From Deltaproteobacteria bacterium (GTDB lineage: Bacteria > Myxococcota > Myxococcia > Myxococcales > Anaeromyxobacteraceae): a stretch of 64,000 nt of DNA. The notes beneath the pieces are model-generated. The model was not told where the DNA came from and made no database searches. It saw only the letters and a program-made list of their open reading frames with translations. Numbering within the stretch: the stretch's first letter is position 1; each line of letters begins with the position of its first letter. The position numbers and the translations under genes were made by a program. Below, in pieces: positions 27,327 through 30,992 of this stretch. Location of the stretch: the NCBI GenBank assembly GCA_016214955.1, contig JACRMN010000001.1, forward strand, positions 172,501-236,500. The letters are read 5' to 3'.

Positions 27327-27880
27327 GCCTTCCTCGGCCTCGCCACCACTGCGTCCACCGCCGCGCCCCCCTCGACGAGACGGACCTGCACGTCCTCACC
27401 CTCGGCCACCTCGACCGGTGCGCCGACGAAGTCGGCGGCGATGGGCAGCTCTCTCCCGCCGCGGTCGATGAGCACGGCCAGCCACACCCGGCGGGGCCTG
27501 CCGAAGTCCACCAGTTCGTCCAGCGCCGCCCGGATGGTGCGCCCCGTGTAGAGCACGTCATCCACTAGCACGATGGTCCGACCCTGGATGGGGAAGCGGA
27601 TGTCGGTGGGCCCGACGACCGGCGCCCTGCCGCGCTCCGCCAGGTCGTCGCGGTAGAGCGCGATGTCGAGGGTGCCGAGCGGCGGCTCCTGGCCGCTGGC
27701 CCTGGCCACCTCGGCCCGCAGCCGCTCCGCCAGGTGCACGCCGCCGCGGCGCACCCCGACGATGGCCAGGTCCGAGGGCCGGGCATCCGTCCCGCGGGCC
27801 CGGGAGCCGATCTCGGCCGCCATCCGCCGCACCGCCGCCTGCACGGCGGCGGCGTCCAGCACCACCCGCTCGGCGCTCAT
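27323..27880 (-). CDS. pyrR: PyrR: pyrimidine operon regulator / uracil phosphoribosyltransferase
   Basis: A 185-residue protein of the phosphoribosyltransferase fold. The PRPP loop is IVLVDDVLYTGRTIRAALDE (about 100-119) and VGVRRGG near residue 43 contacts the nucleotide. In Gram-positives PyrR binds leader RNA and causes attenuation; in others it serves mainly as an enzyme. Here it overlaps its neighbours by 4 bp on each side, so there is no room next to it for a leader attenuator. ATG at 27880. Confidence 0.93.
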   Translation of the reverse strand: MSAERVVLDAAAVQAAVRRMAAEIGSRARGTDARPSDLAIVGVRRGGVHLAERLRAEVARASGQEPPLGTLDIALYRDDLAERGRAPVVGPTDIRFPIQGRTIVLVDDVLYTGRTIRAALDELVDFGRPRRVWLAVLIDRGGRELPIAADFVGAPVEVAEGEDVQVRLVEGGAAVDAVVARPRKA

Positions 27881-28350
27881 CGGCTCGGTCCCCAGTCCGG
27901 CAGCCCGATGTCCATCACCATGTCGACCTGCATTTCCACCTCCGACCAGCGTTCGACGATGGGGTAGTAGAGGTCGCGGCGGTACGTGAAGGCGACCCGC
28001 AGCTCCGGGGGCCGCGCGGCGGTGTCGCGCTGCCAGGTCACCTCCACCGGGTCCACCACCACCGAGGGGCGGGACTCGACGCGGCCGTCCTCCGCCAGCG
28101 TCCTGGAGGAGTCGAGCGACCGGAGCTTGGCGCACATGTCGGCAACCAGCTGCTGGTCGTTGGGGTCCTTCACCGCCCGGTTCCCGTAGTCGCGCACCAC
28201 GTGCTTCACCTCGTAGTGCACCACCCAGATTGGCGCCCAGACCACCAGCAGGTAGCCGCCGGTGACGAGCCCCACGATCAGGAACAGCGTCACCCAAGTG
28301 ATCGCCCCGCGCTCGCCGCGCCTGCTCGATCTGCGAGGGGAAGTGGACAT
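27877..28350 (-). CDS. Single-span membrane protein, unknown function
   Basis: A 157-residue protein with a basic N-terminus (SPRRSSRRGERGA), one membrane helix at about 17-38 (VTLFLIVGLVTGGYLLVVWA) and an outside domain of about 120 residues, including DPVEVTWQRD and VAFTYRRDLYYPIVERW. The pattern looks like a small DUF4845-type protein, often found next to lepB; I consider this likely but not certain. It lies 20 bp after lepB and overlaps pyrR by 4 bp, so it belongs to the lepA-lepB-pyr string. Confidence 0.75.
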   Translation of the reverse strand: MSTSPRRSSRRGERGAITWVTLFLIVGLVTGGYLLVVWAPIWVVHYEVKHVVRDYGNRAVKDPNDQQLVADMCAKLRSLDSSRTLAEDGRVESRPSVVVDPVEVTWQRDTAARPPELRVAFTYRRDLYYPIVERWSEVEMQVDMVMDIGLPDWGPSR

Positions 28351-28370
28351 CGGCGGGAGGTCTTTTATCC

Positions 28371-29183
28371 CTACTCGATCGGTTTGAAAAGCCGCTCGAT
28401 CCGCGGCGCGCCGGTCCAGCGCAGCAGCACCAGCTCCACCCGCCCCTCGACGTTGTCGAGCGGGACCTGCCAGCCCCCCGCGGAGCGGCTGTCCTGCGAC
28501 CGGTCGCGGTTGTCGCCGAGCACGAAGAGGTGGCCCGGCGGCACCGGGGCCCAGGGCCCCTCGCGGTCGTCGCTGCGCGGCTGGCGGCAGCGGAGCATCT
28601 CGTGGCGCACCACGCCTGCCCCCTCCACCGCCCTCCAGGCCTCGGACTCGGCCTCCCGCCCGGCGCCGCGCGGCGGCGGCACCGGCCCGCGGGCCAGCGT
28701 CTCCAGGAAGCGGAGGCAGGTGTCGCTCCACCAGCGGCCGCTCTGCTCGCTGCGCTCCTGGTAGCGGGCTTCCCCGCCGGCCTCGGTGGGCTGGGGAACG
28801 CCGTTGACGTGGAGGGTGCCGTCGCGCACCTCGACCACGTCGCCGGGCAGCCCCACCACCCGCTTGACGAAGTCCCGGTCCGGCTGGCGCGGGTGGCGGA
28901 AGACGATGACGTCGCCGCGGCGCACCGGGCGGGCCAGGAGCCAGGGGCCACCGAGCGGCAGCTTGAGCCCGTAGGCCCCCTTCCACACCACCACCTGGTC
29001 GCCGGCCAGCAGCGTGGGCGCCATGGAGGCCGAGGGGATGCGGAACACCTCGACCGCGAAGGTCCGCAGGAGCAGCGCCGCAGCCACGGCCACGAGCAGC
29101 GGGAGCCCGAACTCGCGCCAGGGGCCGAGCTTCCGGCGGCGGCGACGACGGGGCGGCGCCTCCGGCTCGGCCGCGTCCGGCAG
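28371..29183 (-). CDS. lepB: Signal peptidase I, probable CTG start
   Basis: A membrane-bound protease that removes signal peptides from exported proteins. The catalytic serine lies in FRIPSASMAPTLLAGD (about residue 50), the general-base lysine in FVKRVVGLPGD (about 105), and LFVLGDNRDRSQDSR is the third signature. A 70-residue insert separates the two halves, as in other Gram-negatives. The first usual codon, GTG 29093, would cut the membrane anchor in half. CTG 29183 follows GGTGGAGGA by 8 bp and gives the full basic N-terminus (RRRRRRKLGPWREFG) plus helix, total 270 residues. Lies just after lepA. Confidence 0.9.
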   Translation of the reverse strand: MPDAAEPEAPPRRRRRRKLGPWREFGLPLLVAVAAALLLRTFAVEVFRIPSASMAPTLLAGDQVVVWKGAYGLKLPLGGPWLLARPVRRGDVIVFRHPRQPDRDFVKRVVGLPGDVVEVRDGTLHVNGVPQPTEAGGEARYQERSEQSGRWWSDTCLRFLETLARGPVPPPRGAGREAESEAWRAVEGAGVVRHEMLRCRQPRSDDREGPWAPVPPGHLFVLGDNRDRSQDSRSAGGWQVPLDNVEGRVELVLLRWTGAPRIERLFKPIE

Positions 29184-29186
29184 GGC

Positions 29187-30992
29187 CTAGTCCTCCACCT
29201 TCAGCACCGCCAGGAAGGCCGACTGCGGGATCTCCACCGACCCCACCTGCTTCATCCGCTTCTTGCCCTCCTTCTGCTTCTCCAGGAGCTTGCGCTTGCG
29301 GCTGATGTCGCCGCCGTAGCACTTGGCGAGCACGTTCTTGCGGAAGGCCTTCACCGTCTCGCGGGCGATGATCTTGGCGCCGATGGCGGCCTGGATGGCC
29401 ACCTCGTACATCTGCTTGGGGATCTCCTCGCGCAGCTTCTGGCACAGCTCGCGGCCGCGGAGGTAGGCCCGCTCCCGGTGGACGATGGAGGAGAGCGCGT
29501 CGACGGGCTCGCCGTTGATGAGGATGTCGAGCTTGACGAGGTCGGCCTCCTCGTACCCCTTGAGCTCGTAGTCCAGGCTGGCGTAGCCGCGGGAGACGCT
29601 CTTCAGCTTGTCGAAGAAGTCGAAGACCACCTCGGCCAGCGGGATGTCGTAGGTGATCTGCACGCGGGTGGTGCCGATGTACTTCAGGTCCTTCTGGAGG
29701 CCGCGCCGGTCCTGGCAGAGCTTGAGGATGGCCCCCACGTCCTCGGTGCGGGCGTGGATGTGGCAGGTGAGGTGCGGCTCCTCCAGCTTGGCGATGCGCT
29801 GCACCGGCGGAAGCTTGGCCGGGTTGTCGATCTCCTGCACCTCGCCCTGGGTGTCGGTCACCCGGTAGACCACGCTGGGCGCGGTGGTGATGAGCGAGAG
29901 CTCGTACTCCCGCTCCAGCCGCTCCTGGACGATCTCCATGTGGAGCAGCCCCAGGTAGCCGCAGCGGAAGCCGAAGCCCAGCGCCTGGCTGGTCTCGGGC
30001 TCGTAGGTGAAGGCCGAGTCGTTGAGCCGCAGCTTCTCCAGGGCGTCGCGGAGCTGGTCGTAGTCCTGGGCGTCGATCGGGAAGACGCCGCTGAAGACCA
30101 TGGGCTTCACCACCTTGAAGCCCGGGAAGGGGGCGCCGCTGGGCCGGTCCACCTCGGTGATGGTGTCGCCCACCTTGGCGTCGTGGACCTCCTTCACGTT
30201 GGCGACCAGCACCCCCACCTCGCCGGCCATGAGCTGGGTCACCGGGCGCGCGAAGGGGGAGAAGACGCCCAACTCCTGGACCTCGAACTCCTTCTTGTTC
30301 GAGAAGAGCAGGATGTGCTGCTTGGGCCGCAGCGTCCCCTCGAAGATGCGGACCAGCATCACCACGCCGCGGTAGGTGTCGTACCAGCTGTCGAAGATGA
30401 TGGCCTTGAGCGGCGCGTCGGGGTCGCCCTGCGGGGGCGGCACCTTCTTCACCACCTGCTCCAGGATCTCCTCGATGCCGATCCCCTCCTTGGCGCTGCA
30501 GGGCACGGCATCGGCGGCGTCGAGGCCGATGACCTCCTCGATCTCGCGCCGGACGGCCGGCACGTCGGCGGAGGGCAGGTCGATCTTGTTGATGACCGGG
30601 ATGATCTCCAGGTCGTGATCGAGGGCCTGGTAGACGTTGGCCAGCGTCTGGGCCTCGACGCCCTGCGTGGCGTCCACCACCAGCACCGCACCCTCGCAGG
30701 CCGCCAGCGACCGGGAGACCTCGTAGGCGAAGTCCACGTGGCCGGGGGTGTCGATGAGGTTGAGGATGTAGTCCTTGCCGTCGCGGGCCCGGTAGCCCAT
30801 CCGCACGGTCTGGGCCTTGATGGTGATGCCCCGCTCCCGCTCCAGCTCCATGTTGTCGAGGAACTGGGCCTGGGCTTCACGGGCGGTGACGGTGCCCGTC
30901 TTCTCCAGCAGCCGGTCGGCCAGCGTCGACTTGCCGTGGTCGATGTGGGCAATGATCGAGAAGTTGCGGATGTGTGCGTTGGCGGCCGGCAT
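29187..30992 (-). CDS. lepA: Elongation factor 4 (LepA), ribosome-associated GTPase
   Basis: A 601-residue translational GTPase that acts on stalled or mis-translocated ribosomes at the membrane or under ionic stress. The G1 loop is [17 protein letters not shown]2/G3 are seen in [14 protein letters not shown] and [11 protein letters not shown], and G4 in NKIDLPSAD. The C-terminal LepA-specific domain ends in [21 protein letters not shown]-like sequence. It is the first gene in an unusually long coupled string reaching 23266. ATG at 30992. Confidence 0.97.

Follow-up and report, generated by a model that had tools for sequence, protein, structure and literature searches.

The signal peptidase I gene (lepB) behind lepA in the window, the 64,000-nucleotide stretch of DNA analysed here, very probably starts at CTG 29183 as a spare copy under weak selection, and would yield an ordinary signal peptidase I at a low level. 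An earlier note had placed the start at this CTG beside the lepA stop codon. The placement is supported by the lepB starts of the orthologues, the homology of the upstream residues, the hydropathy of the membrane anchor and the spacing of the Shine-Dalgarno (SD) sequence.

The lepA-lepB junction and the N-terminus of LepB

The window genome (5.3 Mb in 30 contigs) is the sole assembly for its species, and the C-terminal 132 residues of its LepA share 98% identity with those of the other genomes of the genus. Past the lepA TAG, the sequence reads GCC CTG CCG GAC and continues into an intact LepB in the same frame as lepA, with 3 nt separating the TAG and the CTG (Table 1). The frame contains no ATG, GTG or TTG between the lepA stop and GTG 29093, confirming the earlier description of a frame free of canonical starts back to the stop codon of lepA. 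Apart from CTG 29183, the near-cognate codons that precede GTG 29093 are limited to AAG and CTG 29099, the latter already inside the anchor. A frameshift or indel with a start in another frame was rejected, since inspection by eye found no ATG, GTG or TTG in any frame from the lepA stop to GTG 29093.

Table 1. Coordinates of features at the lepA-lepB locus
Feature	Position	Strand	Remarks
lepA (elongation factor 4)	29187..30992	-	601 aa; ATG 30992; stop TAG 29189-29187
SD-like GGTGGAGGA	29191..29199	-	within the last lepA codons (K-V-E-D); 7 nt before CTG
CTG, proposed lepB start codon	29181..29183	-	offset +6 from the lepA stop; matches GTG in G006 and the starts of 22 further junctions of the order
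N-terminal stretch missing with a GTG 29093 start	29094..29180	-	basic segment, WREF motif, first part of the membrane anchor
GTG, first canonical in-frame start	29091..29093	-	gives a truncated anchor, without usable SD
lepB, signal peptidase I	28371..29183	-	270 aa from CTG; stop TAG 28373-28371; identified by Pfam, TIGR02227 and motifs
Promoter-like TTTTCA-N17-TAAAAG	28362..28390	-	over the last lepB codons; identified by conservation

LepB matches Pfam Peptidase_S26 over the whole domain (1.3e-43, 149.3 bits, cut-off 22.9) and NCBIfam TIGR02227 with 133.4 bits (cut-off 47), and the motifs with the catalytic Ser (SASM) and Lys (FVKRVVG) and box E (GDNRDRSQDSR) are all intact. Most LepB proteins of the family (L004-L014) have an extra N-terminal segment of 60-70 residues, probably helical and cytosolic, which is missing from the LepB proteins of the window, G006 and G011.

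The protein from CTG 29183 would open with MPDAAEPEAPPR..., and its N-terminal anchor and the preceding basic residues are complete, whereas both are incomplete from GTG 29093. The segment LGPWREFGLPLL, residues 19-30 of LepB, lies upstream of GTG 29093, and a start at this GTG reduces the anchor to VAVAAALLLRTF... with the loss of RRRRRRKLGPWREFGLPLL. An HMM built on 13 family orthologues, with the window excluded, gave 328.5 bits for the protein from the CTG vs. 319.5 bits from GTG 29093, a gain of 9 bits for the upstream residues. When the 30 N-terminal residues were shuffled 500 times, the score reached 328.5 bits just twice. The 19-residue anchor has a hydropathy of 2.19 from the CTG, compared with 1.84-2.47 in the orthologues and 1.67 in the truncated form. 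The 12 codons that immediately precede GTG 29093 showed no third-position excess in a comparison with distant relatives (80, 83 and 81 changes by codon position), although they are few. The HMM and the hydropathy confirm that the basic segment and half of the anchor lie upstream of GTG 29093, as noted earlier, and they support the view that these residues are homologous to those of the orthologues and would be translated.

The SD-like sequence was evaluated against the anti-SD core; a search of the 30-contig assembly for the exact pattern of the 16S 3' end found no match. The core duplex energy is -9.3 kcal/mol for CTG 29183 vs. -2.5 kcal/mol for GTG 29093, where a gap of 17 nt makes the pairing useless. 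These energies bear out the earlier note's claim that the CTG has the best ribosome-binding site nearby, with the spacing corrected from 8 to 7 nt. A true start at GTG 29093 with a short anchor is highly improbable. No canonical codon comes earlier in the frame, and a standard gene caller would be expected to choose it; however, it would leave LepB with half an anchor, no basic segment and no SD at a usable distance, and homology to the orthologues, whose starts lie 6-10 nt past lepA, extends upstream of it. The SD is present in 6 of the 8 family genomes without lepB, where it persists because it is built from the last codons of LepA, and it appears to be largely a by-product of these codons. 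The predicted mRNA folding at the lepB start is no better than that of shuffles (z 0.81), and thus no structural switch is claimed.

lepB starts in related genomes

A total of 117 lepA ends were collected from the window's order and parsed by script, and 103 of them have a recognisable lepB. At 95 of these junctions, an in-frame canonical lepB start (ATG 57, GTG 36, TTG 2) is located -1 to +13 nt from the lepA stop, with +6 as the commonest offset (23 of 95). The lepB start is further off or unplaceable at six junctions. The window and G021 have no near canonical start; the next one lies inside the conserved protein in both, and both have an in-frame CTG at the junction, at +6 and +5, respectively. 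An in-frame CTG at +3 to +15 occurs at only 1 of the 87 other junctions, so that its presence at both of these exceeds chance expectation. As CTG represents about 5.5% of the in-frame codons following lepA, one CTG within range is by itself not improbable. Within the family, G006 has a GTG at exactly +6. A scan of the genome contigs for related loci gave only two distant matches. This comparison with related genomes, which the earlier note had suggested, supports CTG 29183 as the start through the orthologue offsets and the upstream homology.

In G021, the GTG start of G022 reads GTC, and a CTG lies two codons upstream. Comparison of the two genomes over the codons from this CTG to the next GTG (+149) showed 4, 7 and 17 changes by codon position, a third-position bias indicating that translation must begin upstream of GTG +149. 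G021 seems to start lepB independently with the CTG (+5). However, the start could be the GTC instead, which is conceivable because one GTC start has been verified in Caulobacter (PMC4117421).

The apparently independent case in G021 bears on whether the window's CTG stands in place of a true GTG (or ATG) through faulty sequencing or assembly, which is very unlikely. The window genome is a single genome in 30 contigs with the 16S end not found in the assembly, and G006 carries GTG at the same position, but a substitution at exactly that base is unlikely a priori and the frame shows no other damage. Read-through of the lepA TAG into a LepA-LepB fusion, which the earlier note had named as a result that would speak against a CTG start, is barely conceivable. 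The TAG is in frame with lepB in the window, G006 and G022; however, most family members carry lepB in a different frame from lepA, and G006 and G022 have a GTG at +6 and +9, respectively. We know of no purpose for such a fusion.

The lepA stop codons of the family (L033-L055) are TAG in 14 of the 15 genomes with lepB and TGA in all 8 without it. A link between the stop codon and lepB was considered and rejected, as lepB also follows TGA outside the family and TAG occurs without lepB. The pattern fails across the order and is therefore left out of the evidence.

Probable redundancy of the lepA-linked copy and its loss in relatives

The window genome contains a second complete signal peptidase I gene (G000:C27:160658) with a GTG start. 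The lepA-linked lepB is absent in 8 of the 23 family genomes (G001, G002, G007, G010, G012, G014, G015 and G017), all of which show a match to the second signal peptidase I. G001 and G002 are both of the other genomes of the window's genus, and their remnants comprise a few bases resembling the lepB start and ~30 nt of its end. The catalytic Lys is replaced by Arg, and DSR by DGR, in the lepA-linked copies of G006 (L016) and G011 (L015), which are probably inactive or repurposed. The lepB of G023 (L017/L051) lacks the segment with the catalytic Ser, a gap that may reflect decay or an assembly fault. The lepA-linked copy is intact in 12 of the 23 genomes; in the other 11 it is absent or damaged. 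The lepA tree places the window genome in a clade of genera 1, 5 and 6, where it alone keeps an intact lepB, and with the weakest start. Its LepB has a distance of 0.485 to the genus-3 copies vs. about 0.417 for G003 and G008, whereas the lepA distances for the same comparison are similar (0.144 vs. 0.129-0.134).

The second complete enzyme, the eight genomes that lack lepB and keep the other copy, and the three damaged copies speak, on comparative grounds, against the earlier description of lepB as an essential gene. The losses and damage in close relatives make it look dispensable rather than an essential throttled gene, and the lepA-linked lepB is probably a non-essential spare.

The end of lepB is retained where the gene is deleted. 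The tail (CTTTTCAAA ... TAnAA) is kept in G001, G010, G014 and G017, with one change in G002, and this conservation in lepB-deleted genomes suggests that positions 28362-28390 may act as a promoter driving the next gene together with the pyrR-pyrB-pyrC-carA-like genes downstream. A consensus scan found no strict sigma-70 match at this position. A small conserved single-anchor protein (GAITWVTLFL...) is encoded between lepB and the pyrR-like gene (27880-28350, minus strand), with no match in Pfam or NCBIfam.

The earlier note proposed that the weak CTG is adaptive, keeping LepB scarce and linking it to the synthesis of LepA, which is possible but doubtful. The 12 catalytically intact family copies start with GTG (9), CTG (2) or TTG (1) and none with ATG, compared with ATG at 56 of the 83 near lepB starts outside the family. 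However, GTG starts are common in GC-rich genomes. The two apparently independent CTG cases and the precedent of a plasmid CTG start tuned with a strong SD (PMC11983097) also favour adaptation. Against it, lepB is lost or damaged in nearly half of the family genomes, LepA codons largely determine the SD, and the genomes compared are non-independent samples. The claim of a deliberate lowering of translation is unsupported, since the SD is set mostly by LepA codons and relaxed selection also yields a weak start. Drift in a redundant gene explains the weak start equally well or better. A stronger version, in which the family junction repeatedly evolves CUG as a selected dosage device that grades the second signal peptidase down with LepA translation, rather than as decay, is unlikely.

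Proposed initiation and comparable systems

In the proposed mechanism, GGTGGAGGA at the end of lepA would position ribosomes so that the initiator tRNA reads CTG 29183 as Met, and ribosomes finishing lepA translation at the TAG, 3 nt before the CTG, would perhaps contribute to initiation. The product would be an ordinary 270-aa signal peptidase I at a low level. The general job could be covered by the other signal peptidase I that the genome encodes, so that selection on the lepB start would be weak, and the CTG would have replaced a GTG/ATG-type junction start in a clade losing the lepA-linked copy. Initiation at the CTG, the low level, the coupling and the relaxed selection are what we infer from the sequence. 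Coupling of lepB to lepA translation is plausible, as the spacing of -1 to +13 nt is kept across the order.

Published measurements agree with a weak start of this kind. In E. coli, expression from CUG is about 0.86% of that from AUG, and CUG accounts for 0.024% of annotated bacterial starts (PMC11497404). Reconstructed switches from GUG to CUG are about 2 in 10,000 (PMC5622118), and reinitiation is effective only across very short distances, with the stop and start overlapping or a few nucleotides apart (PMC10666635). Low lepB output is accordingly expected.

The closest comparison is the rep gene of the FIB plasmid, in which a CTG start with GGAGG had been overlooked for a misannotated downstream GTG; N-terminal analysis and a CTG-to-CTC mutation established the start, and the CTG with a strong SD was proven to tune expression (PMC11983097). 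Similarly, lepB has a CTG with a well-spaced GGAGG, a tempting downstream GTG (14 codons away in rep, 30 in lepB) and low expected expression. However, the lepB CTG is identified by comparison alone, and the gene is chromosomal and dispensable-looking. In Caulobacter crescentus, CTG accounts for 0.7% of the starts mapped by ribosome profiling (PMC4117421). The lepB start resembles these in its GC-rich bacterial chromosome and near-cognate first-position mismatch, although it is inferred by comparison rather than from profiling. As in the lepA-lepB pairs of the order, lepB is directly behind lepA with its start a few nucleotides from the stop, but those pairs use ATG, GTG or TTG, whereas the window and G021 have CTG and the window genome encodes another signal peptidase I as well. 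E. coli also has lepB directly behind lepA. On comparative grounds, the window lepB is probably a new example of the rare but established CTG starts.

Standard gene callers consider only ATG, GTG and TTG starts, and LepB is thus expected to be annotated 30 codons late with its membrane anchor cut. That the same junction yielded two CTG cases indicates that alignment of orthologues can reveal such starts. The family, in the course of losing one signal peptidase I, would offer a natural series from a normal start through a weak start and a dead enzyme to deletion.
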